Source: a virus
Reading direction: 5' to 3' (one strand)
Virus record (IMG/VR): IMGVR_UViG_3300034104_007004
Location: 1-52,567 of that record
DNA: 52,567 nt
A model generated the notes under the pieces. That model did not search any database and was not told the origin of the DNA. It saw only the letters and a list, made by a program, of their open reading frames with translations. The position numbers were made by a program, and so were the translations under genes. Position 1 is the first letter of the stretch; each line of letters starts with the position of its first letter. Shown piece by piece: positions 6,192 to 32,256 of this stretch.

Positions 6192-6194
6192 AAC

Positions 6195-6401: not shown

Positions 6402-6788
6402 TCAAAAAACAAAATTTTCAGATAAATGTATTTTGTTTTGTTGATTATTCTTTGTTTTTTCAAGTCTGAGATAAAGACTTGTTGTAGTTTCATCAAATTT
6501 AGATGGTTCTACTTTATAACATATTTCTGTAATCGAATCAACTAAAATAATCCAATCAACAGTTTCCTTATAAGACACACCAGTTTCAGAGTAAAGTTTA
6601 CACCTAATAGTACCATTTTTTGGTGTAACAAACTTTACTTGAACTCTTTTTATCACACCAAATTTATCATCACAAATAATGTCATATGGACAATCATCAC
6701 CAAATGGTTTAGACACCCAATACCCTTTTTTTAGAAGGTGGGTCATAACCAATAACTCACCGATATCACCTTTTATATTAGTTCTCAT
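6402..6788 (-). CDS. PD-(D/E)XK endonuclease-like protein (PDDEXK_5 type)
   Basis: In this 128-residue protein the N-terminal part reads GDIGELLVMTHLLKKGYWV. PYDIICDD and a RVQVKF strand follow. The conserved Glu, Asp and Q-x-K are the catalytic pattern of the PD-(D/E)XK fold, close to the small single-domain group that includes the homing nuclease I-Ssp6803I. It should cut double-stranded DNA with metal ions. It is placed inside a tRNA array, next to two structurally damaged tRNAs, as expected for a homing element, although no intron is visible. A TATTTATA box lies 4 nt before the ATG. Holliday-junction or repair nuclease is an alternative. Confidence 0.75.
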   Translation of the reverse strand: MRTNIKGDIGELLVMTHLLKKGYWVSKPFGDDCPYDIICDDKFGVIKRVQVKFVTPKNGTIRCKLYSETGVSYKETVDWIILVDSITEICYKVEPSKFDETTTSLYLRLEKTKNNQQNKIHLSENFVF

Positions 6789-6792
6789 ATTT

Positions 6793-6800
6793 TATAAATA
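6793..6800 (-). promoter_or_regulatory. TATTTATA box 4 nt before the PD-(D/E)XK gene
   Basis: TATTTATA on the minus strand, then AAAT and the ATG at 6788. It is one of the boxes with a 3-4 nt spacer to the start codon. Confidence 0.5.
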
Positions 6801-6842
6801 TCGTAGAGTATAACAAAGGGTATGTAATGGTTTGATAAAAAG

Positions 6843-6915
6843 AGCGAAAGACCGGATTCGAACCGGCGACCCTGAGTTTGGTAAACTCATGCTCTACCAA
6901 CTGAGCTACTTTCGC
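6843..6915 (-). tRNA. tRNA-Gly (ACC), unusual anticodon
   Basis: All arms pair perfectly: acceptor GCGAAAG/CTTTCGC, D stem GCTC/GAGC, anticodon stem TGAGT/ACTCA with loop TTACCAA, T stem CCGG/CCGG with TTCGAAT. The anticodon at positions 34-36 is ACC, which reads GGU (Gly). The discriminator base is T, as usual for bacterial tRNA-Gly. Bacterial tRNA-Gly normally has GCC, UCC or CCC, so ACC is rare. GGT is the dominant Gly codon in the capsid gene at 30463. Confidence 0.85.
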
Positions 6916-6923
6916 AAAAAAGA

Positions 6924-6975
6924 AGACCCGGGCCCAACAAGCCGTGAAAACACGGAAGGGCCCTTTTGAAGGTCT
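6924..6975. other. compound hairpin between two tRNA-Gly genes
   Basis: Three nested stems pair symmetrically: AGACC (6924-6928) with GGTCT (6971-6975), GGGCCC (6930-6935) with GGGCCC (6958-6963), and CCGTG (6942-6946) with CACGG (6951-6955) around AAAA. On the minus strand it is followed directly by TCTTTTTT and then the tRNA-Gly(ACC), so it could terminate the upstream transcript or serve as a processing spacer. Confidence 0.6.
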
Positions 6976-6981
6976 AATTTG

Positions 6982-7054
6982 AGCGGTAAACAGGATTCGA
7001 ACCTGCGACCCCGTACTTGGAAGGAACGTGCTCTACCAACTGAGCTATTACCGC
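6982..7054 (-). tRNA. tRNA-Gly (UCC)
   Basis: Acceptor GCGGTAA/TTACCGC and D stem GCTC/GAGC are intact. The anticodon arm CGTTC/GTACG has one T-T mismatch and loop CTTCCAA giving TCC, and the T stem CAGG/CCTG carries TTCGAAT. Discriminator T fits tRNA-Gly. CCA is not encoded. Its 5' end abuts the stop codon of the 7055-7192 gene. Confidence 0.88.
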
Positions 7055-7192
7055 TTATCTGAAATATGTTGTGTCACCATGGATATTGTCCCATTCACAA
7101 ACGAAGGTTGTCTCAGGTTTTTCTACCTTTTCGACTACTTCGTCCAACGTAAACATATAATCCAAGTGGTCCTCGGGTGATTTTGTATTCAT
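7055..7192 (-). CDS. small hypothetical protein, 45 aa
   Basis: ATG at 7192 opens a 45-codon frame (MNTKSPEDHLDYMF start, DTTYFR end) with TAA at 7055-7057, directly abutting the 5' end of tRNA-Gly(UCC). The product is acidic and soluble with no known motif. It lies between tRNA-Thr and tRNA-Gly on the same strand, so it is probably read from the tRNA array transcript and released by tRNA processing. The coding case rests on an intact frame, charged composition and perfect fit to the gap. Confidence 0.55.
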   Translation of the reverse strand: MNTKSPEDHLDYMFTLDEVVEKVEKPETTFVCEWDNIHGDTTYFR

Positions 7193-7209
7193 TTAGTTTA
7201 ATAATGTTG

Positions 7210-7281
7210 AGCCGGCGGAGGGATTTGAACCCCCGACCAGCGGTTTACAAAACCGCTGCTCTACCACTGAGCTACGCTGGC
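7210..7281 (-). tRNA. tRNA-Thr (UGU)
   Basis: Acceptor GCCAGCG/CGCCGGC has one A-C mismatch at pair 4-69. The D stem GCTC/GAGC, anticodon stem GCGGT/ACCGC with loop TTTGTAA (anticodon TGT) and a T arm with TTCAAAT are regular. Discriminator T, CCA not encoded. Confidence 0.88.
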
Positions 7282-7313
7282 TTATAAATTTAAATATATT
7301 TAGTCAAAGAACT

Positions 7314-7490
7314 TTATTCAGAAATGTCGCTTTTGTCAAGGTCTGAGAGGGAAATTTCTTGATTTTTCCACGCTTTCCAAACATCAAAGTCTTTAAGTTC
7401 CTCCAATACCTCTTCACGAAGGAGAATGTATCCTTCAGGAGCCACGGTTGAGAACCTGACTTTTTTTATTTGGTCACGTGTTGGTTTCAT
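7314..7490 (-). CDS. small hypothetical protein, 58 aa
   Basis: ATG at 7490 opens a 58-codon frame (MKPTRDQIKKVRF start, DKSDISE end) with TAA at 7314-7316, exactly filling the gap between tRNA-Arg and tRNA-Thr. The sequence is charged with a basic N-terminus and acidic C-terminal half, predicted helical, soluble, with no recognised family. Like the 45-residue neighbour it appears embedded in a polycistronic tRNA transcript. Confidence 0.6.
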   Translation of the reverse strand: MKPTRDQIKKVRFSTVAPEGYILLREEVLEELKDFDVWKAWKNQEISLSDLDKSDISE

Positions 7491-7498
7491 AAATTTAG

Positions 7499-7572
7499 TA
7501 CCCCGAAAAGGATTCGAACCTTTGACCTACGCATTAGAAGTGCGTTGCTCTATCCAGCTGAGCTACCGAGGC
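7499..7572 (-). tRNA. tRNA-Arg (UCU)
   Basis: Acceptor GCCTCGG/TCGGGGT pairs with three G-U wobbles. D stem GCTC/GAGC, anticodon stem ACGCA/TGCGT with loop CTTCTAA (anticodon TCT) and T stem AAAGG/CCTTT with TTCGAAT. Discriminator A. It decodes AGA, the favoured Arg codon in this AT-rich genome. It is the first gene of the minus-strand tRNA array. Confidence 0.92.
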
Positions 7573-7604
7573 GTTTTACTTGTACAAATATAAGAACAAA
7601 TTCT

Positions 7605-7955
7605 TTATTTCCAAAACAATTGTACACAAAGAATCAAAAAACATAAAAACAAAGAAACTCCTGTTTTTAAAGTAATTGGTTCCTTCAAAATATACCAAGC
7701 CATTATGGAAAATACAGTAACCCCCAAGATAAATCCGATAATTCGGTTCGGCCATGTCTCACCGTCGTGTAAATCCACCATTTTTCTCGATGCCAAGATA
7801 ATGAGGTATCCCAAAGGGACACCCAAGATAGACATCAAAAAAGGGTGTTCCTTTATCCATTTATTCCACAGATGTCCTTGGAGTTGGTAGAAGGTAAACA
7901 CCTGTCCTAACACATAGACTATTAGGATAAATGCAATATCAAATAATTTTGTCAT
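7605..7955 (-). CDS. integral membrane protein, 116 aa
   Basis: Four hydrophobic segments can be seen (about residues 5-25, 40-57, 70-88, 96-114), giving a small multi-pass inner-membrane protein. The start overlaps the stop of the lytic transglycosylase gene by ATGA (7952-7955), so the two are translationally coupled. They form an operon with 8512-8832 and 8836-9486. Its place directly after a transglycosylase fits a holin-like or lysis-accessory role, but four helices with charged loops (VDLHDGETW) are not a standard holin pattern. Function unknown. Confidence 0.7.
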   Translation of the reverse strand: MTKLFDIAFILIVYVLGQVFTFYQLQGHLWNKWIKEHPFLMSILGVPLGYLIILASRKMVDLHDGETWPNRIIGFILGVTVFSIMAWYILKEPITLKTGVSLFLCFLILCVQLFWK

Positions 7956-8515
7956 TTCAATTCATATTTTTGTATTTGAACCCATTTGGATTTGTAGTTC
8001 AAATTATTGGATGTGTAACGGGCGTAGTGGTTGACCATAGGATGTCCTGTGTTGTAGAATCCAAGAGCCAAATCCCACCTATTGTACATTCTTTTGAGTT
8101 TTGTGAGCATTTTACAAGAGATGGTTACATTGAGTTCCAAATCCTCTCTGAGCTCCTTAGAGGAGAGTCTACGACCCGCATATTTGTGAGACCATCGGGT
8201 GATAATCTGCATGGGTCCTTGAGCTCCAGCTACGGAGGTTCGGTATGGGTTGTAGTTCCAATGGAACGGACCTCTGTAACCTGTTTCAAGATATGCCACG
8301 TTGTACAAGATATGTTTTGGTATATCGTACTCCTTTGATTTTTTTTCTAAGAGATGGTACATAAAAATTGAGGTGGGGGAGTTTGAATCACTCCCCATCT
8401 GATACAACTCATCTTCAAAAGTTTTATTAACTTGTTGATAGAGGAAATAACCCAAACCTAAGATTCCGAAAACAATCAAAAAGATAATCGTTTTGAATGT
8501 TTGTCGTGAACTCAT
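7952..8515 (-). CDS. membrane-anchored lytic transglycosylase (SLT-like)
   Basis: I choose the ATG at 8515 (MSSRQTF) because it overlaps the upstream stop as ATGA, giving 187 residues; a longer frame from 8542 would intrude into the neighbour. Residues ~8-27 form one transmembrane helix. The rest is a goose-type/SLT lysozyme-like domain with the catalytic Glu in LETGYRG, then GAQGPMQI and ALGFYNTG, the ordered motifs of the family. It should cleave the glycan strands of peptidoglycan from the periplasmic side. The N-terminal anchor and its partners suggest local wall opening during entry or lysis. Confidence 0.85.
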   Translation of the reverse strand: MSSRQTFKTIIFLIVFGILGLGYFLYQQVNKTFEDELYQMGSDSNSPTSIFMYHLLEKKSKEYDIPKHILYNVAYLETGYRGPFHWNYNPYRTSVAGAQGPMQIITRWSHKYAGRRLSSKELREDLELNVTISCKMLTKLKRMYNRWDLALGFYNTGHPMVNHYARYTSNNLNYKSKWVQIQKYELK

Positions 8516-8832
8516 TTTTCGGGGGCGTTGTGTTGACCCCAAAGGTTCTTAGCGTACACATTGAAGATAACCGTACCAATTCGGTCTTCCAAGATGATGT
8601 AGGTTCCTTTGGTTTTATCGATAATCATAAAATTATTATTTTCATCGATTGCCACGGTCACTTCATTCCGTGTGATAAACTCAGGCTTTCCGAGTTTGCT
8701 TAGTTCTTTTAGGGTGTTGTAGTAGTAACCCAAGGTAAAGAAGACCCCCATTCCCAAAATGATATAAAGGTAGTTTAGTAATACCTTGATACCACTTTTG
8801 AGTTTGTTCCAAAATTCAAGTAATAGTTCCAT
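8512..8832 (-). CDS. membrane protein, 106 aa
   Basis: An N-terminal amphipathic stretch is followed by a strong transmembrane helix (about residues 18-40, YLYIILGMGVFFTLGYYY). A soluble C-terminal beta-rich domain (VTVAIDENNNFMIID...) follows. It overlaps the lytic transglycosylase start by ATGA and begins 3 nt after the 8836-9486 gene, so it is in the same operon. It probably places its C-terminal domain in the periplasm together with the transglycosylase. I do not recognise the family; a spanin or holin cannot be claimed from sequence. Confidence 0.65.
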   Translation of the reverse strand: MELLLEFWNKLKSGIKVLLNYLYIILGMGVFFTLGYYYNTLKELSKLGKPEFITRNEVTVAIDENNNFMIIDKTKGTYIILEDRIGTVIFNVYAKNLWGQHNAPEK

Positions 8833-8835
8833 TTT

Positions 8836-9486
8836 TTAGTTTGTTTGGTTTATTAATTTATCATAAATTTCTGACAGTCGTTTTGTTTTTCCTTCGATAA
8901 CCGTGGTAAATTGATTAAGACCGTTGGTCCCACTGTTACCTCTTTCGTTATTGTGGGCGAAAAAAACTCCATTATTGTAAAGTTTATTCGGAGTGGAGTA
9001 TAGTTTACCCTCGAACTCCAAAAACCCATCACTTGTAAGTTTGACATCGTACTCTGTTTTTTTGTACACACGTTTTAGTTCAAGGTTTGGATATTTCTCT
9101 GAAAGTAAAAGAAGACGCTCGTCACGGGAATCCTGTTTTTCGGGTATAAGAACATTCAAATCCCCAATAGAAAAACCTTTTTTAGACATGTAGTTACTCA
9201 CAAACGATTCAATAGTTTTTTTATCGTCAATAAAAAACTCAGTAATGAAATCCGTGGTTCTGATTCTGATATCTTTTAAAAGGGTGTGGAGTTCTTTTTC
9301 GATTTCACTCATTTCATCAACCCACCATATTTTGAAAATCTTGACTTGGTAACTGGTATTGGTCCGACCCAAAGAACTCTGTCTTTCTGCGGGATTTATT
9401 GTTTTTCCAATTTTTATTTCAGATAAATCAACATCCTTGTTTAGGTGAGTATATTTTGCCAAATAAATGTATCCTGATTTTTCCAT
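8836..9486 (-). CDS. GIY-YIG-type nuclease domain protein (T5orf172/MUG113-like)
   Basis: In this 216-residue protein the first ~95 residues begin SGYIYLAKY and contain EIKIGKT. An RQSSLGRTN helix and a conserved EKELHTLL segment follow. This is the pattern of the T5orf172/MUG113 branch of the GIY-YIG nuclease superfamily. The C-terminal half carries no known domain. Such proteins are common in large phages and are thought to nick DNA, though many remain uncharacterised. It is first in its operon, and a host-type promoter sits only 4 nt before the ATG, predicting a leaderless message. Confidence 0.82.
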   Translation of the reverse strand: MEKSGYIYLAKYTHLNKDVDLSEIKIGKTINPAERQSSLGRTNTSYQVKIFKIWWVDEMSEIEKELHTLLKDIRIRTTDFITEFFIDDKKTIESFVSNYMSKKGFSIGDLNVLIPEKQDSRDERLLLLSEKYPNLELKRVYKKTEYDVKLTSDGFLEFEGKLYSTPNKLYNNGVFFAHNNERGNSGTNGLNQFTTVIEGKTKRLSEIYDKLINQTN

Positions 9487-9490
9487 ATCT

Positions 9491-9522
9491 CAAATATAGG
9501 GGAAAGATTCGGTGTGGTCAAA
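9491..9522 (-). promoter_or_regulatory. Bacteroidota-type promoter 4 nt before the GIY-YIG gene
   Basis: On the minus strand TTTG (9522-9519), 20 nt, then TATATTTG (9498-9491), then AGAT and the ATG at 9486. This is the second host-type promoter in the window with a 4-nt gap to the start codon. It overlaps the terminator of tRNA-Ser. Confidence 0.72.
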
Positions 9523-9544
9523 AAAAATCCCGACCTAGCTCGGG
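9520..9544 (-). terminator. terminator after tRNA-Ser
   Basis: On the minus strand CCCGA and TCGGG form a 5-bp stem with a short loop (9544-9529), followed by ATTTTTTT. It ends the Cys-cluster gene/tRNA-Ser transcript immediately upstream of the next promoter. Confidence 0.8.
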
Positions 9545-9559
9545 AAAACACATCGGATG

Positions 9560-9646
9560 TGGAGGCTCAGGGATTCGAACCCCGGGTACCCTCTCAAGTA
9601 CGCTTGTTTTCAAGACAAGTCCAATCAACCACTCTGGCAAACCTCC
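9560..9646 (-). tRNA. tRNA-Ser (UGA)
   Basis: A class II tRNA with acceptor GGAGGTT/AGCCTCC, anticodon stem CTTGT/ACAAG with loop CTTGAAA (anticodon TGA), a long variable arm (GTACTTGAGAGGGTAC) and T arm GGGGTTCGAATCCC. Discriminator A. Its first G is the last base of the TAG stop of the upstream gene, so message and tRNA share a nucleotide. Confidence 0.93.
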
Positions 9647-12363: not shown

Positions 12364-12395
12364 CAAAGATAAGTATTTTATTCCAAACTATCCAA
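12364..12395 (-). promoter_or_regulatory. host-type promoter of the tmRNA transcript
   Basis: On the minus strand TTG (12395-12393), 21 nt, then TATCTTTG (12371-12364), fitting TAnnTTTG. The predicted start is at about 12360, exactly at the first base of the leader's closing stem. It lies within the 3' end of the oxygenase gene. Confidence 0.6.
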
Positions 12396-13112
12396 CTCAT
12401 TTTTCCAAATTGCACGTGTAACTAATTCAAATTTTGGTTTTTGATTGTTATAATAATACAAGGCTAAACTTTTACGTGTTATACTTTCAGGACATTTAAG
12501 TGAATGGGGATGTCCATGAGGTGCTTTATCGATACTAAACATTACAACCCTATTGGAAATTGGCGATATTTTTTTACAAGGACCTGACATGTCTTTCCAC
12601 CAAAGTTCTAAATCACCATCCCATTGTTCATCCCAATAAGAGTTGAGATACACAAGTAAGTTGATATGTCTGAAAAGGTTTTCATTTATGTGACTATCAT
12701 TGAAATCGTGGTGTATTTCTAATCTCCCATCTCTACCTGTTTGGTGATACGCAGCATTTGTGTATTCATTTGATTCATGTGTAAGATTTTGAAATCCTGT
12801 TATCTCAGATACGAGGTCCAAAAAATATTTTGAATTCAAAAATTCAATAATCTCTTTCATTGTTGGAAGTAAGTTATTGAAATTATAGATTTGTTTTTTG
12901 TTCACTTGACTCTCATGTTGGTCATAGTCACCTCCCCCGACAAATCTCCAATTTTCAGATGGGTTTGATGAAATGAATTCAACTTCATCGAGAAGACGAT
13001 TGATGACATCTTCACGGAAAAAATCATCCATGACAATATGGTTGAAAGGAATATCTGTTTTGTATGCCCGAGAATATTCCGATATGTTTCTGAGAGTTTT
13101 ATTGCTTAACAT
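12378..13112 (-). CDS. 2OG-Fe(II) oxygenase (prolyl-4-hydroxylase-like)
   Basis: This 244-residue protein carries the iron-binding HxD (His134, Asp136 in EIHHDFND), a distal His in the APHGHPHSL segment (201 or 203) and an Arg in ITRKSLALYYY (213) for 2-oxoglutarate. The core of residues ~125-222 is a double-stranded beta-helix typical of the 2OG-FeII_Oxy_3 family. These enzymes hydroxylate amino-acid side chains or other small groups using O2 and 2-oxoglutarate; the substrate is unknown. Such genes are common in T4-like marine phages. It reads towards the tmRNA and its 3' end contains the tmRNA promoter. Confidence 0.88.
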   Translation of the reverse strand: MLSNKTLRNISEYSRAYKTDIPFNHIVMDDFFREDVINRLLDEVEFISSNPSENWRFVGGGDYDQHESQVNKKQIYNFNNLLPTMKEIIEFLNSKYFLDLVSEITGFQNLTHESNEYTNAAYHQTGRDGRLEIHHDFNDSHINENLFRHINLLVYLNSYWDEQWDGDLELWWKDMSGPCKKISPISNRVVMFSIDKAPHGHPHSLKCPESITRKSLALYYYNNQKPKFELVTRAIWKNELDSLE

Positions 13113-14135: not shown

Positions 14136-16133
14136 TTACTTACCGAGTTTTATTTCCTCATTCTCAACTTTGAGTTTGTACTTCTTTCCTTCCTTGATTT
14201 TCTCGGTGAGAACCAATTCTGAAATATAGTCTTCAATCTTGTCTTGGATTGCCCGTTTGATAGGACGTGCTCCGTAGACCTCATCGAAACCGATTTTGGA
14301 AATGTAATCAACCAAGGTTTGGTCGTAACTGAATTCGTACTTCAACTCCTTCATACGTCCCATCAGTTTGTTGAGTTCCAAACTAACGATTTGGTTGATG
14401 TTCTCCTTATTCAAGGTCTTGAACACGATAGTGTCATCGATACGATTCAAGAATTCAGGGGAAAAGAAATGTTTCATTTCCTTCATCAGGATTTGTTTCT
14501 TAGCCTCCTCGTTGGAGTACTTGTTGGATGAGAAACCAATACCCGAACCAAAGTCTTGAAGTTTCCTAACACCAAGGTTTGTGGTCATGATAATAAGGGT
14601 GTTCTTGAAGTTGATTTTACGACCGAGTGAATCCGTGACATGACCATCATCAAGAACCTGAAGAAGGATTGAAAAAATGTCTTTATGGGCTTTTTCAACC
14701 TCATCAAACAAGATTACACAGTAGGGTTTGTTTTTAACTTGTTCGGTAAGTTGTCCACCCTCTTCATAACCTACATACCCTGGGGGTGCTCCAACCAAAC
14801 GAGATACGGTGTGTTTCTCTTGGTATTCACTCATGTCCATTCGGATAAGGGCGTCTTCAGAACCAAACATCTCTTTGGCAATTTGTTTAGCCAAGTGTGT
14901 TTTACCCACCCCAGTTGAACCCAAGAAGATAAACGAACCAATCGGTCGGTTGGGGTCTTTGATTCCAATACGATTACGACGAATAGACTTGACGATTTTC
15001 TCGATTGCCTCGTCCTGTCCGATAACCTTTCCTTGAATGGACTTATCCATGTTGATAAGTGCTTTGGTGTCGTCAATGGACATCTTATTCACTGGAATTT
15101 TGGTCATCGAGGAAACCACATCATAGACTTGTTCTGCTGAGATGGGATTACGAGTAGAAGCAAACTGTTCCTCGTACTTCTTTTTTTCAGCATCGAGTCG
15201 TCCCAAGACTTTACGTTCTTTGTCACGGAGTTCTGCTGCTTGTTCGTAATTCTGACGTCTTACAACATCCATCTTCTGTTGTTTCACATCAGCAGCTTCC
15301 TTCTTGAGTTTCTCGATGGACTCAGGAACCTTTTGGTCGGTTTGGGAACGGGCACCAACCTCATCCAAGATATCGAATGCTTTGTCAGGGAACTCACGGT
15401 CTGTGATGTAACGGTCAGCTAGTTTGACACAGAGTTCAACAATCTCATCCGAGTAAGAAACCTTATGATAGGATTCGTACTTATCACGGATATTCTTGAG
15501 AATCTCGATGGTTTCAGAAACCGTTGATGGGTCAACGATAACCTTTTGGAATCGACGTTCAAGAGCGCCATCCTTTTCAAAAGATTTGCGGTATTCATCC
15601 AAGGTGGTAGCACCGATACATTGAAGTTCACCCCGAGCAAGTGCTGGTTTGAAAATGTTGGAACCATCCAAAGAACCGGATGAATTACCTGAACCAATCA
15701 AGGTGTGAATCTCATCGATAAAGATGATAATATTGGGATTGTTTTGAAGTTCTTCCAAGATAACCTTGAGTCGCTCCTCAAACTGCCCACGATACTTTGT
15801 ACCGGCAACCACAGCGGTTAGGTCCAAGTTAACAATTCGTTTGTCTAACAAATTTTTGGGACACTCCCCTTCGACAATCTTCATCGCCAAACCCTCAACG
15901 ATAGCGGTTTTACCACTACCAGGTTCACCCAAGATAATTGGATTGTTCTTCTTTCGACGTGAAAGAATCTGAGCAATACGGAGGATTTCCCTCTCCCTGC
16001 CAATGACAGGGTCAAGTTTTCCTTCGGTCGCCAACTTGTTCAAATCCCGTGAGAAATTATCCAACACAGGGGTTCCCGATTCAGATTTCTTTCTGCTGGT
16101 GGTTTTGTCGTCGTCGTCCATTGTTTCGTTCAT
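14136..16133 (-). CDS. ClpC-like AAA+ unfoldase without N-domain
   Basis: This 665-residue protein has two AAA+ modules: Walker A GEPGSGKT (69-76), Walker B IIFIDE (~136-141), arginine finger in ALERRF (~190-195); a UVR-type linker ([12 protein letters not shown], ~297-308); then Walker A GSTGVGKT (405-412), ILFDEVE and a C-terminal sensor domain (GARPIKRAI). It starts just before the first module, so the Clp N-domain used for adaptors is missing. IGF at 532-534 lies where ClpA/ClpC dock on ClpP, so partnership with host ClpP is likely. It should unfold and feed proteins in an ATP-dependent way. It is divergent from the UVR protein gene at 16298 across a region with repeated TGACA-N3-TGTCA sites. 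Confidence 0.92.
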
Positions 16134-22714: not shown

Positions 22715-24478
22715 ATGACTAAAGAACAACTAATTATTGAGTATAAAAAATGTCTTAAGAGTACCCCCTATGCTCTTAGGACTTATTTACAAACCTACGA
22801 TAACACAATTTCTAGGTATGTTCCTTTGGAGTTGTTTTCTGACCAATTTGAGTTGGTAAATGACTATGAAAATTTTAATGAAAATATTGCCCTGAAATAC
22901 AGACAAGCAGGTGTTTCTACCGTGACAGCCGCTTGGGCTAGTAAAAGACTTGCTTTTGCTCGTAAAGAAAAACCTGAAAAAGTTTTGATTATTGCAAACA
23001 AACTTGACACCTCTGTTGAATTTGCAAATAAAATTAGGGCATTTATCGAACAATGGCCCAGTTGGGTTGGTATTGGATTTTCTGGCGAAAAAAATGCCGC
23101 AAAACACTATAAATTGAATAATGGTTGTGAGGTCAAGGCGGTTGCCACTTCTAAGGACGCCCTACGTGGATACACACCTACGATTCTTATATTTGACGAA
23201 GCGGCTTTTATCGAAGCCGACAGTGATTTTTGGCCGGCTTGTATGGCGTCACTATCTACGGGTGGTAAAGTTATCGTTATTTCAACCCCTAACGGATTCG
23301 ACCCTATCTACTACGAAATCTACGACCAAACACTTCGTGGAATGAATGATTTCAAAATTACTGAAATGTATTGGTTCCGTGACCCACGTTATACAAAAGA
23401 TTTGTATATGGTAAAGTGTAACGACATTGTTCACTATCTTCTTAACAAAGAGGAATATCCAAAAGACGTCGTTGTGGATTTATCCCATGAGAATCACCGC
23501 GAAAGAACTCTGACCGATTTACAAGCATTCATTGCCGACGGATACAAACCATGTTCTTCTTGGTTTGAGAGTATGGTAAAAAAATTCAAATACGACAAAC
23601 GTAAGGTTGCGCAGGAATTGGAGTGTAACTTTTTAGGTTCTGGCGACAACGTATTTGACTCTCAGTTGGTTCAGACAATCATGAAAAATGATGTTAGGGA
23701 ACCGGCAGCCAAACTTATTGGTGGACAACTTTGGATTTGGAAAGAACCTGAGAACGGACACAAATATGTCATGGGAATTGACGTTTCCCGTGGTGATTCC
23801 GAGGATTTTTCATGTATTGAAATTATTGATTTTGACAGTAGAGAACAGGTATTGGAATTTGTTGGAAAAGTCCCACCTGATATTTTAGCGGAGATTGGTT
23901 ACAAGTGGGGTAATATGTACAACGCACTTTGTGTTACGGATTTGACTGGAGGAATGGGTGTCGCTACTTCAAGAAAATTACAAGAACTTGGGTACGAGTT
24001 GTTCTACTATGATGGGGTGGATATGACAAATTTGTGGAAGTTTGACCCAAGAGTCAAAGACAAAATACCTGGAATTAATTTCAATAGTAAAAGAGTCCAA
24101 ATTATTGCGGCATTCGAAGAAAACATTCGACATGAGTTTAAAGTTAGGAGTAGTCGTTTGATTAATGAAATGGGTACATTTGTTTACATCAATGGAAGAC
24201 CTGACCACCAAAGAGGTCATCATGATGATTGTATCATGTCTATCGCCATCGCTCTTTATGCCGCGGAGGCGGCTTTTCCATCTTTGGTAAAGGTTACCAA
24301 CCATACCAAAGCGATGATTAATTCATGGGCGACCCATGTGAATGAAAATACTGAAAGGTCTGATTTTTTTAATCCAATGATTCCACAATTCCCGAATCAA
24401 AATGGAATGGGTAGACCAAACCAACAAGTATCTCGTGAGGATTATCAGAAATACGGATGGTTATTTGGTATCCGTTAG
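22715..24478 (+). CDS. terminase large subunit (T4 gp17-like)
   Basis: In this 587-residue protein the N-terminal ATPase carries a variant P-loop (YRQAGVST, 62-69), a Walker B ILIFDE at 157-162 followed by AAF, and the coupling motif VISTPNG (~188-194). The C-terminal RNase-H-fold nuclease has MGIDVSRGD (Asp356), VTDLTGG (Asp409) and a late HHDDC acidic pair (~residue 520). It translocates DNA into the prohead at the portal and cuts the concatemer. The P-loop has Val in place of the usual Lys, a variation known in several TerL groups. It is followed directly by the portal gene, as in T4. Confidence 0.95.
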   Translation: MTKEQLIIEYKKCLKSTPYALRTYLQTYDNTISRYVPLELFSDQFELVNDYENFNENIALKYRQAGVSTVTAAWASKRLAFARKEKPEKVLIIANKLDTSVEFANKIRAFIEQWPSWVGIGFSGEKNAAKHYKLNNGCEVKAVATSKDALRGYTPTILIFDEAAFIEADSDFWPACMASLSTGGKVIVISTPNGFDPIYYEIYDQTLRGMNDFKITEMYWFRDPRYTKDLYMVKCNDIVHYLLNKEEYPKDVVVDLSHENHRERTLTDLQAFIADGYKPCSSWFESMVKKFKYDKRKVAQELECNFLGSGDNVFDSQLVQTIMKNDVREPAAKLIGGQLWIWKEPENGHKYVMGIDVSRGDSEDFSCIEIIDFDSREQVLEFVGKVPPDILAEIGYKWGNMYNALCVTDLTGGMGVATSRKLQELGYELFYYDGVDMTNLWKFDPRVKDKIPGINFNSKRVQIIAAFEENIRHEFKVRSSRLINEMGTFVYINGRPDHQRGHHDDCIMSIAIALYAAEAAFPSLVKVTNHTKAMINSWATHVNENTERSDFFNPMIPQFPNQNGMGRPNQQVSREDYQKYGWLFGIR

Positions 24479-24517: not shown

Positions 24518-26380
24518 ATGGACCAAAAGAATATGACAGTATGGCAAAGGTTATCGAGGGCTCTCGGTCCTGATGCTTTACTGAGTCAAGATTTCCCAAC
24601 TTACAAGTTCGACAAAAAAGAACTTCTGAGAACTACAGACAAAGCCACTTACGAGAAAGAAAAATTACAGGGTCAACAAAGTGTTTATTTGGCAAACCAA
24701 TTTGCTAAAGTTGAGAGTAATCTTTACACACAAGCAATCTACTACGAACCAAACAGATTGGCTTCGTACTACGATTTCGAGTCCATGGAATATACCCCTG
24801 AAATTTCAGCCGCTTTAGACATTTACGCCGAAGAATCTACCACACCAAATGAAGATGGGTATATTCTACAGATTTATTCTGAATCAAAAAGAATCAAATC
24901 AGTGTTAGCCGACTTGTTCAATAATAACTTGGACATCAACACCAACTTACCTATGTGGACAAGAAATACATGTAAGTATGGTGATGATTTTGTATACCTA
25001 CGTTTGGACCCCGAAAAAGGGGTAATTGGTTGTCAACAACTTCCAAACATCGAAATCGAAAGATTTGAAACAGGTATGATGGAAAGAAATATTACATCTG
25101 ATGTCAAACCTTCAAAAGAAAACAAGGGTCTTACTTTCCAATGGAAAACAAGAAACATGGAATTTCAACCATGGGAAATTGCTCACTTCAGATTATTAGG
25201 TGATGACAGAAAACTTCCTTATGGTACTTCCATGTTAGAAAAGTCACGTAGAATTTGGAAACAATTGTTGTTGTCAGAAGATGCAATGTTGATTTATCGT
25301 ACCTCGAGAGCGCCTGAAAGACGTATCTTCAAAGTTTATGTTGGAAACATGAACGATGACGATGTTGAAGCATATGTAAACCGTGTTGCCAATAAGTTTA
25401 AGAGACAACAAATTGTTGATTCGAAAACAGGGCAAGTTGATATGAGATTCAACCAAATGGCGGTAGACCAAGATTACTTTATACCTGTTCGTGACCCATC
25501 GACACCTTCACCAATTGAAACTTTGGCGGGAGCTCAGAACTTGTCTGAAATTGCGGATATTGAATACATTCAAAAAAAGTTGGTGACAGCTCTTCGTATT
25601 CCTAAGGCTTTTCTCGGATTCGAAGAAACGGTTGGAGATGGTAAAACTTTAGCGTTGATGGATATTCGTTTCGCACGTACCATCAATAGAATTCAAAAGT
25701 CCATGATTCAGGAGTTGAACAAAATTGCAATTGTTCACCTTTTCTTGTTAGGATTTGAGGAAGAAATTTCGAATTTCACTTTAGGACTGACCAACCCATC
25801 AACTCAAGCTGATTTGTTGAAGGTAGACATTTGGAAAGAAAAAGTTCTTCTTTATCGTGACATGGTTTCAGACCCTGGTAATGGAATTCAACCAACTTCC
25901 TCTACTTGGGCAAAAAAACATATCTTTAATTTCTCTGATGAGGAAATTCGTTTGGACTTGTTACAACAACGTCTTGAAAGAGCTATTGGTGAGGAATTGA
26001 AACAGACTCCTGTCGTTATCAGTAAGACAGGATTGTTTGATACTATTGACAAACTTTATGGAACAAAAGGTGGTGGTGAAACCACCGCTCAAGCAACCGC
26101 TGCGGGAGAAGAAACTGTTCCACCACCAAGTATGCCGGGTGGTTTATCTGATTTAGGGGGAGAAACAGGAGAACCTGACTTGGGTGGTGAAATTCCGCCA
26201 GCAGGTGAAGAAGCTGCCGCTGCTACCGCAGGTGGAGAAATTACTCCCGAGTCAAAAAAGAGGGACATGAATATATTGATTGAAAGTGATATGTGGAGTA
26301 GTAAATTTTTGGATTTGGGTGTGGGGCAACAATCTTTAGGAGAAATTGGGGATGAATTAGACAAGTTGTTGAATTCGTAA
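24518..26380 (+). CDS. portal protein (T4 gp20-like)
   Basis: This 620-residue protein is found directly downstream of the terminase. Segments typical of T4-type portals are present: an N-terminal LASYYDFESMEYTPEISAAL, a central region with KYGDDFVYL and a stem/crown region with IPKAFLGFEE and KTLALMDIRFARTI. The last ~100 residues are a Gly/Ala/Glu/Pro-rich linker with a final LGEIGDELDKLL. It forms the dodecameric ring at the capsid vertex through which DNA passes and to which the terminase docks. Length and gene order agree with gp20. Confidence 0.93.
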   Translation: MDQKNMTVWQRLSRALGPDALLSQDFPTYKFDKKELLRTTDKATYEKEKLQGQQSVYLANQFAKVESNLYTQAIYYEPNRLASYYDFESMEYTPEISAALDIYAEESTTPNEDGYILQIYSESKRIKSVLADLFNNNLDINTNLPMWTRNTCKYGDDFVYLRLDPEKGVIGCQQLPNIEIERFETGMMERNITSDVKPSKENKGLTFQWKTRNMEFQPWEIAHFRLLGDDRKLPYGTSMLEKSRRIWKQLLLSEDAMLIYRTSRAPERRIFKVYVGNMNDDDVEAYVNRVANKFKRQQIVDSKTGQVDMRFNQMAVDQDYFIPVRDPSTPSPIETLAGAQNLSEIADIEYIQKKLVTALRIPKAFLGFEETVGDGKTLALMDIRFARTINRIQKSMIQELNKIAIVHLFLLGFEEEISNFTLGLTNPSTQADLLKVDIWKEKVLLYRDMVSDPGNGIQPTSSTWAKKHIFNFSDEEIRLDLLQQRLERAIGEELKQTPVVISKTGLFDTIDKLYGTKGGGETTAQATAAGEETVPPPSMPGGLSDLGGETGEPDLGGEIPPAGEEAAAATAGGEITPESKKRDMNILIESDMWSSKFLDLGVGQQSLGEIGDELDKLLNS

Positions 26381-26408: not shown

Positions 26409-27116
26409 ATGACCTTCGGACAGATAAAATCCATAATTGAAAAAAACTTAGTTGAATCATACAACAAGCCTACTTCCTTTAAACAAACTTTAAGGGAATT
26501 CAAACATAACGTTTTAGAAAATAAAAATTTTGCCAAACTATACTCTTTGTATGATGATTTATTGTCACCTAAAGGTTTGAAAGAAACGGAGGCAAGAGAA
26601 TACCTTGACGAAGGTATTGAAGTGATTAGACATATTCTCAAGACTACTCAACTCCCCAAGAAAGGTGGTGATGTGGTTAATGTTTACGAAGATTTGGACA
26701 ATTTGGTTTATTACACCAAAATCAACATCCAAGAAAGATTAGAGTCAAGAAAAAATATTCTCAAAGCTTTGATGACTGAAACTTCAAAGAAAAGAGAATC
26801 TGTTAATATACCAATCAAATCGATGGTAAACATAGCTAATCAAACTATTCAAAATTATTTGACAAGTTTGGATGAAACAACAAAAAAAGAAGTGTTTCAC
26901 ATCTTGGCATCTAAGTCGGATGACTTGGAAAAAGAATATACAAACCTGAAAGATTCCACAATTTCAAAATTAAATTCTTTATACGAGGAACAATCTGAAT
27001 CTGAAATGAAAACAAGAATTTCAGAAACAATTGAAAAAATTCAGTTGGAAGATTTTGACCAAGTTAATTATATTAGACTAAAACAACTCGAAGAGTCACT
27101 TAGTCAAGAGAATTAA
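26409..27116 (+). CDS. putative prohead core protein with capsid-targeting N-terminus
   Basis: A 235-residue, strongly helical and charged protein between portal and protease, where T4 has the core proteins gp67 and gp68. The first 16 residues (MTFGQIKSIIEKNLVE) form an amphipathic helix ending in L-V-E, the type of cleavage site used by T4-type prohead proteases. The rest is coiled-coil-like. I infer an internal core or scaffold-associated protein that is trimmed on maturation. No sequence family is recognised, so the call rests on position and N-terminal motif. Confidence 0.65.
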   Translation: MTFGQIKSIIEKNLVESYNKPTSFKQTLREFKHNVLENKNFAKLYSLYDDLLSPKGLKETEAREYLDEGIEVIRHILKTTQLPKKGGDVVNVYEDLDNLVYYTKINIQERLESRKNILKALMTETSKKRESVNIPIKSMVNIANQTIQNYLTSLDETTKKEVFHILASKSDDLEKEYTNLKDSTISKLNSLYEEQSESEMKTRISETIEKIQLEDFDQVNYIRLKQLEESLSQEN

Positions 27117-27282
27117 GTTTCTGTTTGTAAATTGCAGACAATTTTTGTTTTCGTCTAACTACTGATTTTTTCGTAAACTCTTTTCTCCCATTCAAAATTT
27201 GGGACTGTTTGGTTTTGATTACTTTGGATTTCAAAGTCTTTAAAGCTTTTTCTATGTTTGAGTTAACAATTACAATTAGCAT
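27100..27282 (-). CDS. rpsU: ribosomal protein bS21
   Basis: A 60-residue basic protein whose NIEKALKTLKSKV, RKEFTKKSVVRRKQK and AIYKQK segments follow the bS21 pattern closely. bS21 binds the small ribosomal subunit near the anti-Shine-Dalgarno region and helps mRNA choice. In Bacteroidota, bS21 is reported to contribute to hiding the anti-SD. Some large phages carry their own copy. Here it lies on the strand opposite to the head genes and overlaps the end of the 26409 gene by 17 nt tail-to-tail. No SD is seen at the usual distance (a GGAG lies about 33 nt upstream). I infer replacement of host bS21 to favour phage messages. Confidence 0.85.
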   Translation of the reverse strand: MLIVIVNSNIEKALKTLKSKVIKTKQSQILNGRKEFTKKSVVRRKQKLSAIYKQKLNSLD

Positions 27283-27360
27283 ATTTAAGAAATATTTTGG
27301 AAATCCGAAAAAGACTCCTATAATTAAAGAAAATAAACGGAAAGAAATATTTCAACCCAC

Positions 27361-27831
27361 GTGAAAAAAGGGAAAACAGTAAAGATTAACCAATACGATT
27401 CATTAAAAACTTTGTACGGTACAGTTGATTCAAAAAATCTTAAATCATTATACATAAACATTCAAACGTGGGTAATTCCCGTTCAAGATTCCGAAAATTG
27501 GACCCGTGTGGTAGGTAATTTATCTCGTGATGTGAAACATTCTGTATACGAGAGTTTAGACCGAAATTTGTTCAAAGAAAATTTTATTGTGGATTTAGAC
27601 TTAAGGACAAGTGGTATTCGATTAGAAAAACATTCTTTCATGAATTTAGAGATTAATTTATTTACTAAAGAAAAATTGGATTTCAAAGGAAATAAATTAA
27701 AAGATTCAATCAAGAAAATTTTGAGGGAAGTCTACAAAGATTGTGTTATGAAAAATGATTATTTTGTCTTTTCCAACTCTAAAGAAACGGGTGAAAAGAA
27801 AACTAACCTATATCCTAATATTTATCTCTAA
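27361..27831 (+). CDS. putative prohead core protein (gp68-position)
   Basis: The frame opens with GTG at 27361 (MKKGKTVKINQY) and gives 156 residues, basic and rich in Lys. It lies directly before the prohead protease gene, where T4 has the small core protein gp68 of similar length. No motif confirms this; the call is from position and size. No ATG in this frame gives a better start. A TATTTATC box for the next gene lies within its last codons. An unrelated small structural protein is equally possible. Confidence 0.55.
   Translation: MKKGKTVKINQYDSLKTLYGTVDSKNLKSLYINIQTWVIPVQDSENWTRVVGNLSRDVKHSVYESLDRNLFKENFIVDLDLRTSGIRLEKHSFMNLEINLFTKEKLDFKGNKLKDSIKKILREVYKDCVMKNDYFVFSNSKETGEKKTNLYPNIYL
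27819..27826 (+). promoter_or_regulatory. TATTTATC box before the prohead protease gene
   Basis: TATTTATC lies in the last codons of the preceding gene, 13 nt before the protease ATG at 27840. The sequence TCTCTAAAAGAGA next to it forms a small hairpin. Confidence 0.4.
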
Positions 27832-27839: not shown

Positions 27840-28556
27840 ATGAAAGATTTAAAAATTTTGGGTCCTCGTGATACGGGTAAGGGTATCCTTATTGAAATGG
27901 ACGCGGGATATGTGTCACCCAAAGATATACTAAATGAAGATTTTTTAAAAGAACAAAAAGATTTAGATTATAGAAACCCTTTTGAATTCTACGCCGTTCT
28001 ACAGAAGTATGGTGTACCTAATCGTAATGGTAGGGTATACCCTGAAAGAATTCTCAAAAGAGAAGCTGACAAGTACAAAAACATTATTAAGAAAGGACTT
28101 TCAACTTCAGAGTTGAATCACCCTGAATCTTCATTAATTGACCTCGATAGAGTATCCCACATAATCACTGATATTTGGTGGGATGGAAATATCTTGATGG
28201 GAAAACTCAAACTTCTCACTTCACCAGGTTTTCACGAAAAGGGGATTGTATCCACAAAGGGAGACATAGCAGCTAACTTAATGAGACAAGGTGTTACGAT
28301 GGGAGTTTCTTCAAGAGGTGTAGGTTCTTTGGCTAAAAAGGGTGAACAAAATGAAGTACAAGATGATTTCGAGTTAATTTGTTTCGATTTGGTATCCTCA
28401 CCTTCAACACCTGGCGCTTATCTATTCAGTGATGTTGATGACAGGACTCAATACGAAGAAAATCTTGATGAAGAAAAAAAACAACTCGCTCAGAGTCACG
28501 GAATGGAAAAATCTGTTGATTTAATGAAAAAATTATCCGATTTTTTAACAAGATAA
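27840..28556 (+). CDS. prohead core protease (T4 gp21-like)
   Basis: In this 238-residue protein the SELNHPE segment supplies the catalytic His (~residue 99), MGVSSRGVG the catalytic Ser (~residue 157-160) and FELICFDLVSSPSTPGA the conserved acidic region. Together these are the triad and fold of the T4 gp21/herpesvirus-assemblin type proteases. In T4 it is activated in the prohead and cuts capsid and core proteins after (L/I)-x-E. Its position between core and scaffold genes matches T4. Its likely substrates here include the scaffold, the major capsid protein and the proteins with (L/I)xE helices listed in the findings. Confidence 0.92.
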   Translation: MKDLKILGPRDTGKGILIEMDAGYVSPKDILNEDFLKEQKDLDYRNPFEFYAVLQKYGVPNRNGRVYPERILKREADKYKNIIKKGLSTSELNHPESSLIDLDRVSHIITDIWWDGNILMGKLKLLTSPGFHEKGIVSTKGDIAANLMRQGVTMGVSSRGVGSLAKKGEQNEVQDDFELICFDLVSSPSTPGAYLFSDVDDRTQYEENLDEEKKQLAQSHGMEKSVDLMKKLSDFLTR

Positions 28557-28903: not shown

Positions 28904-30430
28904 ATGCAAGAAACTAAAAATTTAGTTGAAGAGGCTCTGATTCAAATGAAAAACGTTGAAGATGTTATAGCCGAAAACGCAAAAGGAATACTTGCTTCTA
29001 CAATGAAGGAAGAAATCAGTCAGTTAGTAAAAGAATCTCTTACCGAACAAGATGTCGAAGATGAGATTGAAGTCGATACCAAATTGGAATTACCTATGGA
29101 TACTATGGGTGATGAAGATGAAGTTGATTTTGACATGGGTAATTCTGAGGATGACGACGAGTCGGAAGACGAACTCGAAATGGATTTTTCAGATGATACT
29201 ATCGATTTAAGAGACGCATCAGACGAGGAAATTTTGAAAATTTTCAAAGCTATGGGTGAAGAAGACGGAATTATTGTTTCTAAAGATGACGACGAAGTTC
29301 ATATTAAGGACAATAATGAAGATGTGGAATACATCGTTAAAATGAACGAATCGGAAGAAATGGACGAAGAGTTAGAAGAAGGTGACATGGAGTTCGAAGA
29401 ACTTGATGAGGCTGACCCTGACTTGGAAGCTGTATTATCTGCTTTGTATAATTCTAACTCTAAAGAAATGGAAGAAGAAATGGACGACGAAGTAGTCTAT
29501 GAAATCGAAATGTCAGAAGACGACGAGATGGAAGAATCTATGGAAATGGATGAAGAGGAAATGGAAGGGTCTATGGAAATGGACGAAGAAATGTATGACT
29601 CTGAAATGGAAGAAGGTTCTGAAGAATACAATCTCGAAGAAGCTAAGATGACTGTAAAACCAAAAGGCGTTGGTATAGGAAGTCCCAAATTTAAGTATGA
29701 TAAGTCATTACCTAAAAAGGGCTTCGATGAAGATAAAAAAGAGGGTCCCAAAACTATGGGAACTGGCAAAGCTAAATTCGAATTTAAAGAAGGTGAAACA
29801 GAAGGTGAAATGGAAGAGGACTATGGTTCTAAGAAACACGAATACAGACGTAAGAAAGTAGACGGTGTTGAAAAGAAATCTGGCGAAAAGAAAGGACATT
29901 ACAAAGATTACGAAAAAGAAGAAACGAAAGAGGCTGCTAGAACTTATGGAATGGGCTCTAAAGAGGGTAGAGGTTTGAGAAAAGGAATCACTAACAACCG
30001 TAATTACGTATATGGTAATAATGGTGTGAAGGTTGAATCTGTAGAAATTGAATTAAAAGTTCTCAGAGAGAAAAATGAGGAGTACAGACAAGCACTCAAC
30101 ATTTTCAGAGAGAAACTTAATGAAGTTGCTGTATTTAACTCAAACTTGGCATACGCGACCCGTTTGTTCACTGAACATTCGACTACCAAAAAAGAAAAAA
30201 TCAATATCTTAAGAAGATTTGATTCTGTAGAAAATCTTAAAGAATCAAAATCTCTCTATAAGACAATCAAAGAAGAATTGGGTAAAACCACAACACAGAG
30301 TGTCAATGAGAACGTTGAAAGAAAACTCAACAATCAAATGACTTCAGGTTCCTCAGCTTCATTGATTGAATCTAAGACATACGAAAATCCTCAGTTCATG
30401 AGAATTAAGGATTTGATGTCAAAAATTTAA
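28904..30430 (+). CDS. prohead scaffold protein (T4 gp22 position)
   Basis: In this 508-residue protein, residues ~40-250 are extremely acidic with many Met/Glu/Asp. They are followed by a Lys/Gly-rich charged middle and a C-terminal coiled-coil (~380-465, EIELKVLREKNEEYRQAL type). It lies between protease and major capsid protein, as does T4 gp22, and has the low-complexity helical nature expected of a core that is degraded during maturation. The N-terminus (MQETKNLVEE) has an L-V-E site within the first ten residues. There is no direct sequence match to gp22; identification is by position and composition. Confidence 0.8.
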   Translation: MQETKNLVEEALIQMKNVEDVIAENAKGILASTMKEEISQLVKESLTEQDVEDEIEVDTKLELPMDTMGDEDEVDFDMGNSEDDDESEDELEMDFSDDTIDLRDASDEEILKIFKAMGEEDGIIVSKDDDEVHIKDNNEDVEYIVKMNESEEMDEELEEGDMEFEELDEADPDLEAVLSALYNSNSKEMEEEMDDEVVYEIEMSEDDEMEESMEMDEEEMEGSMEMDEEMYDSEMEEGSEEYNLEEAKMTVKPKGVGIGSPKFKYDKSLPKKGFDEDKKEGPKTMGTGKAKFEFKEGETEGEMEEDYGSKKHEYRRKKVDGVEKKSGEKKGHYKDYEKEETKEAARTYGMGSKEGRGLRKGITNNRNYVYGNNGVKVESVEIELKVLREKNEEYRQALNIFREKLNEVAVFNSNLAYATRLFTEHSTTKKEKINILRRFDSVENLKESKSLYKTIKEELGKTTTQSVNENVERKLNNQMTSGSSASLIESKTYENPQFMRIKDLMSKI

Positions 30431-30462: not shown

Positions 30463-32256
30463 ATGGGAGCATTACTTGAATCAGGTCTTGTTGGTAACAT
30501 CGGTCTTAAGCACCTTAAAGTTATCAAAGAAGACACAATCAACAAATGGGAAAAATTAGGTTTCCTCGATGGACTTAAGGGTCACCTTAAGGAGAACGTA
30601 GCTCAGTTGTATGAAAACCAAGCTTCACACTTAATCAATGAAGCATCTTCAACGGCTGACTCAGGTTCTTTCGAAACTGTAGTTTTCCCAATCGTTAGAA
30701 GAGTTTTCTCTAAACTTTTGGCTAACGATATCGTATCAGTACAAGCTATGAACCTACCTATCGGTAAGTTGTTCTACTTCGTACCTAACATTCAATCATA
30801 CGAGAATGCACAGAATCAACACTGGGCACCTTACGGTTCTCCTAACGCAGCTGCAGACCAAACACCTAACAGCGGTTATGACTACCAAAACACTAAAGAC
30901 CTTTACGATAGATTCTACGAAGGTAACGAACCAGCTCTTGACCCACCAGGTCTTTACGACTACTCAAGAGGTCAGTTCTCGGCAATCACAGGTGACTGTT
31001 CTACAGTAGCTTGGGCTGGTGACCAATTGATTCTAACAGCGTATGGACTTGATAACTATAGAAAAGTTCTTCTTGTTATGTCAGGTTTTGCAAACGCAGG
31101 TGCTGGTCAATTGATTGGTCCTGATGGTAACCCAATGGACACTGAAACTTTCCTTGCAGGTTTGGAAATCAGAGGAGTACTTGGAAACGTTTACACGTCA
31201 GCAAACACTCAGAACAACTATCTCTTTAGAGTTGTTACTCAAAGATATGGTGATGGTATCGTTCAATACGGTCAAGATGTAACATTAGGGTTCCCCAACT
31301 CTAAGACTGATGGTGGAACTTACTATAACGTCTGTGATGCTTACGGTAAAATCTACTTGGAAGTTGACCTTCAGACACCAGTTTGTGTTACATGTGGTCC
31401 TTCTATGGATGGTTACACAGGTTCATCGTTCTCTTCGAACTCACTTGTGAACACTTCATTCATCACTACTTACAGAATTTACAAGAACTTGGAATTCGAA
31501 GACAGATTAGGTGAAGTTTCTTTCGACCTTGAGTCTGTAACAGTTTCTGTTACTGAAAGAAAGTTGAGAGCACAATGGTCACCTGAAATGGCTCAAGACG
31601 TAGCTGCGTTCCACAACATTGACGCTGAGGCTGAATTGACAGCGTTATTGTCTGAACAAGTAGCTGCTGAAATTGACCGTGAAATCTTGAGAGACTTGAG
31701 AAAAGCTGCGGCTTGGAACTTGAGATGGGATTACAACGGTTGGAAGAGACTTGGAAATGGAAATGGTTCAAACCCTTACACTCAGAAGGACTGGAACCAA
31801 ACCCTTATCACAGCAATCAACCAAATCTCAGCACAAATCCACAAATCTACTTTGAGAGGTGGAGCTAACTGGATTGTTGTATCTTCTGAGGTATCGGCTA
31901 TCTTTGACGACTTGGAGTACTTCCACGTATCAAACGCAGCTCCTGAGCAAGACCAATACAACATGGGTATTGAGAGAGTTGGAACATTGGCAGGTAGATA
32001 TCAAGTTTACCGTGACCCTTACTTCCCAGCAAACCAAGTATTGTTGGGTCACAAAGGTACATCGTTACTTGACACAGGTTACATCTACGCACCGTATGTA
32101 CCTCTACAACTCACTCCTACAATGTACAACCCATTCAACTTTACACCAATCAAGGGTATCATGACCAGATACGCTAAGAAGGTGGTGAACAACCGTTTCT
32201 ACGGACGTATCACAGTTGATGGTGTAAGAACATTCGACTTGAGAGAATTGAGATAA
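30463..32256 (+). CDS. major capsid protein (T4 gp23-like)
   Basis: This 597-residue protein has an N-terminal ~60-residue helical region ending HLINE-A, a likely prohead-protease site (I58-N-E60, cut before A61), as T4 gp23 is trimmed. The mature part starts with FPIVRRVFSKLLANDIVSVQAM, closely resembling the gp23 MVRRAIPNLIAFDICGVQPM region. The C-terminal half contains the long E-loop/P-domain-like stretches of the HK97 fold. Codon use is markedly biased (GGT for Gly, AAC, TTC), as expected for the most abundant protein. It follows an A-rich leader and ends in a strong terminator. Confidence 0.95.
   Translation: MGALLESGLVGNIGLKHLKVIKEDTINKWEKLGFLDGLKGHLKENVAQLYENQASHLINEASSTADSGSFETVVFPIVRRVFSKLLANDIVSVQAMNLPIGKLFYFVPNIQSYENAQNQHWAPYGSPNAAADQTPNSGYDYQNTKDLYDRFYEGNEPALDPPGLYDYSRGQFSAITGDCSTVAWAGDQLILTAYGLDNYRKVLLVMSGFANAGAGQLIGPDGNPMDTETFLAGLEIRGVLGNVYTSANTQNNYLFRVVTQRYGDGIVQYGQDVTLGFPNSKTDGGTYYNVCDAYGKIYLEVDLQTPVCVTCGPSMDGYTGSSFSSNSLVNTSFITTYRIYKNLEFEDRLGEVSFDLESVTVSVTERKLRAQWSPEMAQDVAAFHNIDAEAELTALLSEQVAAEIDREILRDLRKAAAWNLRWDYNGWKRLGNGNGSNPYTQKDWNQTLITAINQISAQIHKSTLRGGANWIVVSSEVSAIFDDLEYFHVSNAAPEQDQYNMGIERVGTLAGRYQVYRDPYFPANQVLLGHKGTSLLDTGYIYAPYVPLQLTPTMYNPFNFTPIKGIMTRYAKKVVNNRFYGRITVDGVRTFDLRELR

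Follow-up and report, generated by a model that had tools for sequence, protein, structure and literature searches.

bS21 is the ribosomal protein most commonly reported in viruses (PMC9723584, PMC9976891). In the main text of Chen et al. 2022 (PMC9723584), Bacteroidetes jumbo phages of clades a-e carry bS21 on the reverse strand, among the genes for the terminase large subunit (TerL), the portal, the protease and the major capsid protein (MCP), and the authors describe late expression together with the head genes, an argument based on Tyr54, and a divergent, co-transcribed neighbour named bS21_CN. In Flavobacterium johnsoniae, ribosomes lacking bS21 translate rpsU, the host bS21 gene, by means of an extended Shine-Dalgarno sequence (SD), which creates a feedback loop, and it has been suggested that this host loop could counter a phage bS21 (McNutt et al. 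2023, PMC9976891). That a phage bS21 changes which mRNAs the ribosomes accept has already been proposed in these two papers. More distantly, bS21 of the pelagiphage HTVC008M, which is also viral but comes from a phage whose host belongs to a different phylum (Alphaproteobacteria), entered E. coli 70S ribosomes (Mizuno et al. 2019, PMC6375957).

We analysed a stretch of 52,567 nucleotides (IMG/VR record IMGVR_UViG_3300034104_007004, here called the window), with a GC content of 0.36, which comes from a large phage of Bacteroidota carrying its own copy of bS21. The gene lies in a T4-type head module with the order TerL, gp20 portal, 235-aa ORF, bS21 (minus strand), 156-aa ORF, S77 protease, 69-aa ORF, 508-aa ORF and gp23 MCP. 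The features used below are the following.

22715-24478, plus strand: terminase large subunit (PF03237, E 9.3e-12)
24518-26380, plus strand: portal protein, gp20 type (PF07230, E 8.8e-75)
26409-27116, plus strand: 235-aa ORF without a family match, convergent with bS21 and on the opposite strand to it in 81/81 loci
27100-27116, both strands: tail-to-tail overlap of bS21 and the 235-aa ORF, 17 nt
27100-27282, minus strand: phage bS21 (rpsU-like) gene, 60 aa, ATG start, identified by PF01165, PDB bS21 chains and dN/dS
27283-27360: intergenic region of 78 nt from which bS21 and the 156-aa ORF diverge
27289-27294, minus strand: TATTTC, a promoter-like box that ends 6 nt upstream of the bS21 start codon
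27332-27338, plus strand: AATAAAC motif, 22 nt upstream of the 156-aa ORF
27361-27831, plus strand: divergent partner ORF, 156 aa, GTG start, adjoining bS21 in 75/76 testable loci
27840-28556, plus strand: prohead protease, S77 type (PF03420, E 1.9e-24)
28904-30430, plus strand: 508-aa ORF in scaffold position, with no family above the cut-off and a role suggested by its position
30463-32256, plus strand: major capsid protein, gp23 type (PF07068, E 3.2e-72)

The 60-residue protein, which begins MLIVIVNSNIEKALK, has PF01165 (Ribosomal_S21) as its sole Pfam match (E 2.7e-9; 37.1 bits against a gathering cut-off of 27), and its closest PDB relatives are the bS21 chains 9i5v and 7jil, the latter from the F. 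johnsoniae ribosome (PMC9723584). It matches the NCBIfam model TIGR00030 (S21p equivalog) below the curated cut-off (23 versus 28.95 bits), so the phage protein has diverged and we file it as a bS21 homologue, not as that equivalog. Comparison with five relatives gave 8-25 synonymous and 1-8 nonsynonymous differences, with dN/dS values of 0.029-0.050. Purifying selection acts strongly on the ORF in its own frame, where the differences are mostly synonymous, so it is a working gene; alignment with the host bS21 start makes its ATG secure. The original prediction, a bS21 homologue on the opposite strand between core genes, was exact as to coordinates, strand, start and length, and it was borne out by the agreement of Pfam and PDB chains, by the selection on the gene and by the presence of TerL, gp20 portal, S77 protease and gp23 MCP nearby. 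Identities of 37-54% to the bS21 proteins of the 395 genomes searched are too distant to assign a host. Three Bacteroidota genomes (G073, G080 and G096) have two or three bS21 copies each. Among named phage records, bS21 homologues were found in three distant uncultured ones, and the 156-aa partner in none.

A search of viral_contigs gave 336 relatives of bS21, the best 80 of which were kept and, together with the window, form a set of 81 loci. Throughout this set every detected homologue of eight head-module ORFs is opposite in strand to bS21: the 235-aa ORF was detected in 81 loci, the partner in 79, the portal in 77, the protease in 74, the 69-aa ORF in 64, TerL in 63, the 508-aa ORF in 62 and MCP in 42, counts in which misses may include genes past the end of the stored piece. 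The tail-to-tail overlap with the 235-aa ORF measures 4-26 nt in 57/57 unique loci, and a scan of the window found no terminator-like site between the two genes. The gene had been described as antisense inside the head operon; its opposite strand is confirmed, but it does not lie within a head gene, the antisense contact being the 17-nt overlap of its tail with that of the 235-aa ORF, and the single operon did not hold up, as by sequence most head genes have a box of their own. The constancy of strand and overlap, and the missing terminator-like site, are what would be expected if the antisense position itself were the function, with transcription of the bS21 strand interfering with head genes or vice versa. 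In compact phage genomes convergent genes commonly overlap by a short stretch, and the strong purifying selection acts on the protein. Together with the co-expression of bS21 and head genes reported in PMC9723584, these points make an antisense function very improbable.

On the other side of bS21, the 156-aa ORF apparently corresponds to bS21_CN (family fam498), the divergent neighbour described by Chen et al. (PMC9723584), a comparison by position and orientation, which agree in 79/81 loci. A separate scan with the partner gave 80 loci; by script bS21 adjoins it in 73, and in two more (L278 and L301) bS21 is present in a longer frame missed by the script; four of the remaining loci were too short and one, L294, has the partner without bS21. 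In L294 a hairpin with a T-run (about 2865-3005) stands in the place of bS21, between the 235-aa ORF and the partner, so on the evidence of this one short contig the partner can exist without bS21, possibly as a natural loss or a state before gain. Chen et al., in contrast, describe bS21_CN as missing from two outgroups lacking bS21 (PMC9723584). No match for the 156-aa ORF was found in Pfam, PHROG or NCBIfam. Its AF2 model is alpha/beta (mean pLDDT 84.9) and had no match with E <= 0.001 in a Foldseek search of PDB; the one strong fold match is the uncharacterised viral model A0A8S5L9A5 (E 1.7e-11, TM 0.77/0.82). We also considered a bS6-like protein and set it aside, as 1ris came at Foldseek rank 42 with E 0.093; with VIA-align all Z were < 8, which is uninformative either way on this likeness. 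The homologous divergent regions (96 unique) are 71-102 nt long, with a median of 95, and AATAAAC is found 18-27 nt before the partner start in 84/96 of them, compared with 22/96 for the reversed sequence and 5/96 for the reverse complement. Judged by this placing, the motif perhaps marks the 5' end of the partner mRNA or its vicinity.

The phage and host proteins differ in the N-terminal helix and agree at the residue linked to anti-SD masking. Position 54 (F. johnsoniae numbering), where an aromatic residue is the mark of a Bacteroidota bS21 that helps to mask the anti-SD, is Tyr in the window, Tyr in 80 and His in 6 of 86 unique phage proteins, and Tyr in 140/141 host proteins, the remaining one having a gap. 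Since the position is aromatic or His in 86/86, masking is probably kept rather than lost. Residues L19, V23, I24 and Q28, on the other hand, are invariant in the 86 phage proteins, whereas the hosts mostly have F/Y19, F/Y23, E/D24 and V/A/T/I28; position 21 is Ser in 81/86 phage proteins and Arg or Lys in 140/141 hosts. These differences agree with the divergent positions of Chen et al. The sequences thus point to a phage bS21 that probably retains anti-SD masking and differs in its N-terminal helix. A tree built from 35 phage rows and 59 host rows (thinned; 64 columns; bootstrap unsettled) parts phage from host bS21 by one branch, with support of 100/99, a single split that indicates an old phage lineage and not a fresh pick-up, at least with respect to the sampled Bacteroidota hosts. 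The aromatic position, the phage-specific N-terminal residues and the separate clustering of phage and bacterial bS21 are all shared with the phages of Chen et al. (PMC9723584).

It is plausible that such a protein alters the mRNA choice of the ribosome. In the form proposed by Chen et al. 2022, bS21 would be swapped so that specialised ribosomes prefer phage late mRNAs, and the phage-invariant helix residues, set against those of the hosts, and the late co-expression (PMC9723584) both fit this proposal. No feature of phage mRNAs was found to track bS21 carriage, however, and the near-leaderless spacing described below is equally rare with or without bS21. We give this explanation a serious chance, a little short of even; it is compatible with the one that we favour, from which it differs in the purpose of the swap.

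The phage gene belongs to the same protein family as F. johnsoniae rpsU and its product to the same ribosomal site, but the leader of rpsU includes an extended SD, whereas the phage gene lacks an SD and, if the box upstream is a promoter, also the room for one. We paired upstream sequences with the 16S tail, using host rpsU upstreams as a positive control. The last 35 nt upstream of the bS21 gene in the window gave -3.3 kcal/mol, in line with the earlier observation that no SD is seen at a normal distance; the best pairing among 32 unique phage upstreams was -3.5 kcal/mol. Autoregulation by an extended SD is associated with about -13 kcal/mol or stronger, a level reached by 0/32 of the phage upstreams and by 20/29 host rpsU upstreams in one set, 8/29 in Flavobacteriales and 18/74 in a set of mostly Bacteroidales. 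A GGAG about 37 nt upstream of bS21 was rejected as SD, being present only in the closest relatives and upstream of the predicted transcript start. The SD is probably lacking for want of a leader, of which the mRNA would have next to none. In Flavobacteriales a strong extended SD is missing from 21/29 unique rpsU upstreams (L162-L192), several of them from small genomes, so the actual host of the phage may have no rpsU feedback loop; going by the upstream DNA, autoregulation of rpsU may be absent in those Flavobacteriales.

What does stand upstream of the phage gene is a conserved box. An unbiased count of 6-mers in the upstream regions of the window ranked ATATTT and ATTTAT highest, with a strand bias of 20 versus 7 and 21 versus 8 of 60, and ATATTT starts 13-16 nt before the ATG in 39/40 unique 60-nt bS21 upstreams (chance 0.042 per sequence). 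We then took the window and 240 locus entries of three overlapping viral_contigs scans, leaving out copies whose stored piece did not include a start or 60 nt of sequence before it, which gave 97 unique upstreams that are not independent events. The strict box TATTT[ACG] ends 4-10 nt before the bS21 ATG in 83/97, exactly 6 nt before it in 50, and a relaxed box (TATTTN or TATATG) has the same spacing in 92/97; the exceptions number 14 and 5, respectively. The box varies by clade (TATTTG, TATTTC, TATTTA) while its spacing to the ATG is constant, a purine and A stand just before it, and in many clades GTCAAAA is found, mostly 26-28 nt upstream of the box. A clade-variable box with fixed spacing and a second element is what would be expected of a bipartite promoter. 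We rejected the idea that a full promoter of this bS21 type also occurs elsewhere in four related records, as its strict pattern matched once, at bS21 itself, in 1/4.

The same box serves as a comparison within these phages, where gene starts are longest-ATG or profile-based guesses. A near box (4-10 nt) was found in 0/73 portal, 0/78 235-aa ORF, 0/90 156-aa ORF, 0/82 scaffold-position 508-aa ORF and 0/39 MCP upstreams, in 7/84 for the protease and in 2/9 for TerL. Upstream of neighbouring genes the box generally lies at 11-34 nt: about 30 nt for the portal, 11-26 for the 235-aa ORF, mostly 23-26 for the 508-aa ORF and mostly 14-15 for the protease, with no box for MCP. For four genes, one in the window (before 16800) and three in two further bS21-phage records, the box comes directly after a terminator-like hairpin with T-run whose end is 12-14 nt from the ATG, so that a longer leader would hardly fit.

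The -7 element of F. johnsoniae reads TAHHTTTG; across 241 probable promoters the gap between it and the transcript start is 4 or 5 nt, and 87% of predicted leaders are longer than 10 nt, with a mean of 33 nt (PMC6847099). The phage box has the TTTG-like core of this host element, and the invariant first T is missing in most clades. If the Flavobacterium rule is applied, the bS21 transcript in the window would start at about 27283-27284, with a leader of 1-2 nt, and across the phage bS21 upstreams the leader would be 0-5 nt, without an SD. We infer from the position and form of the box that it is a late (or host-type) promoter and that the bS21 mRNA is leaderless or nearly so. Host rpsU upstreams differ: TAnnTTTG/C occurs within 110 nt in 118/133 unique sequences, mostly 30-65 nt before the ATG, and ATATTT at the phage position in 4 of 133. 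The box could instead be a translation signal, an A/U-rich element for bS1 or a Kozak-like context, in a longer leader and with no promoter, and its tight spacing to the ATG at the usual place of an SD would suit such a role. The same box occurs 11-34 nt before neighbouring genes, though, sometimes right after terminators, its second element lies mostly 26-28 nt upstream in many clades, and it was the top motif of an unbiased k-mer search, with strand bias. We consider a translation signal unlikely. Host-type TATATTTG boxes were observed upstream of the window genes at 996, 3910, 8836, 13273 and 33849, and TATTTAT boxes before late genes; by their motifs, the window probably has two promoter classes.

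The near spacing is not limited to bS21. A box ending 4-10 nt from the start was found in 12/60 window genes, bS21 included, and in two other bS21-phage records in 11/130 and 10/101 ORFs (expected 2.2 and 1.6), counts that again use longest-ATG or profile-based starts. We rejected near-leaderless mRNA as a general signature of bS21 phages, as the spacing was present in 5/185 ORFs of bS21 loci versus 28/691 in 80 portal relatives lacking bS21. Being no commoner in bS21 loci than in these relatives, it is a habit of a minority of the genes of these phages, bS21 among them with few exceptions, and not a phage-wide shift. Flavobacterium phage vB_FspM_immuto (NC_055915) resembles the window in its T4-type head gene order and TATTTAT boxes, but no bS21 was found in the 49-kb stretch searched, other ORFs occupy the position of bS21 and its partner, and a box ends 0-7 nt from the start in 3/55 genes.

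We lean, if not strongly, towards the reading that a near-leaderless mRNA supplies the phage with a replacement bS21 whose synthesis lies outside the host feedback. The gene's own late (or host-type) promoter would give an mRNA with a 0-5 nt leader, which could not reach the platform of the 30S subunit where bS21, bS18 and bS6 hold the 16S tail; with the platform out of reach, translation of this mRNA would be independent of which bS21, if any, the ribosome carries. In many Bacteroidota, host rpsU is read through its extended SD by ribosomes lacking bS21, an arrangement that keeps bS21 in step with ribosomes. Phage bS21, made outside this loop and late in infection, would exchange into host 30S subunits, where it would hold the anti-SD closed through position Tyr54, the replete ribosomes silencing host rpsU, and would place a different N-terminal helix beside the mRNA exit. 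That this escape from rpsU feedback lets the phage flood the cell, keep ribosomes replete, shut off SD-driven rpsU and so take over the ribosomes late is a more tentative proposal, possible and rather doubtful. Several points stand against our preferred reading: the actual host may have no feedback loop, given the 21/29 Flavobacteriales upstreams without a strong SD, the near spacing neither tracks bS21 carriage nor is exclusive to bS21, 14 and 5 of the 97 bS21 upstreams lack the strict and the relaxed box, the first T of the box is mostly missing, and E. coli ribosomes carrying the pelagiphage bS21 were only about 5% active in vitro (PMC6375957). The last point would be expected if phage bS21 served for host shut-off, poisoning host initiation or removing the function of host bS21 without favouring phage mRNAs. 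Late genes need translation while bS21 is being made, however, position 54 is kept in 86/86 proteins, and the loss of activity may, according to the authors, be a cross-species misfit (PMC6375957). A shut-off role thus seems to us improbable.

Several other features of the window were noted. Of its nine tRNA genes (2793-9646), seven form a minus-strand group at 6.2-9.6 kb. A ClpB/ClpA-type AAA+ unfoldase is encoded at 14136-16133 on the minus strand (PF07724, E 2.7e-69, and ClpB_D2-small); in a speculation of McNutt et al., phages of this kind may have a protease directed at host bS21 (PMC9976891), and no ClpP was noticed among the family matches in the window. There are also a HAD_SAK_2 domain (RNA-repair type) at 3910-4509 on the plus strand and, on the minus strand, a T5orf172/MUG113 domain at 8836-9486, a 2OG-Fe(II) oxygenase at 12378-13112 and an aminotransferase at 48200-49312.

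The kind of bS21, its placement and its proposed role have thus already been published, and the near-leaderless layout is apparently an unreported feature. We did not find this layout for phage bS21 in the open-licence PMC literature: no paper listed by the searches treats it in its title or the opening of its abstract, the word "leaderless" is absent from the main texts of PMC9723584, PMC9976891 and PMC6375957, and the first of these treats neither promoters nor leaderless mRNA in its main text. If the near-leaderless reading fails, the published model is unchanged. The system is tractable, since Flavobacterium genetics and ribosome assays exist. If the reading is true, the box, conserved about 6 nt from the start in divergent phages, would offer a simple, leaderless and feedback-free answer to the question of how a phage bS21 succeeds against a host that itself titrates bS21.
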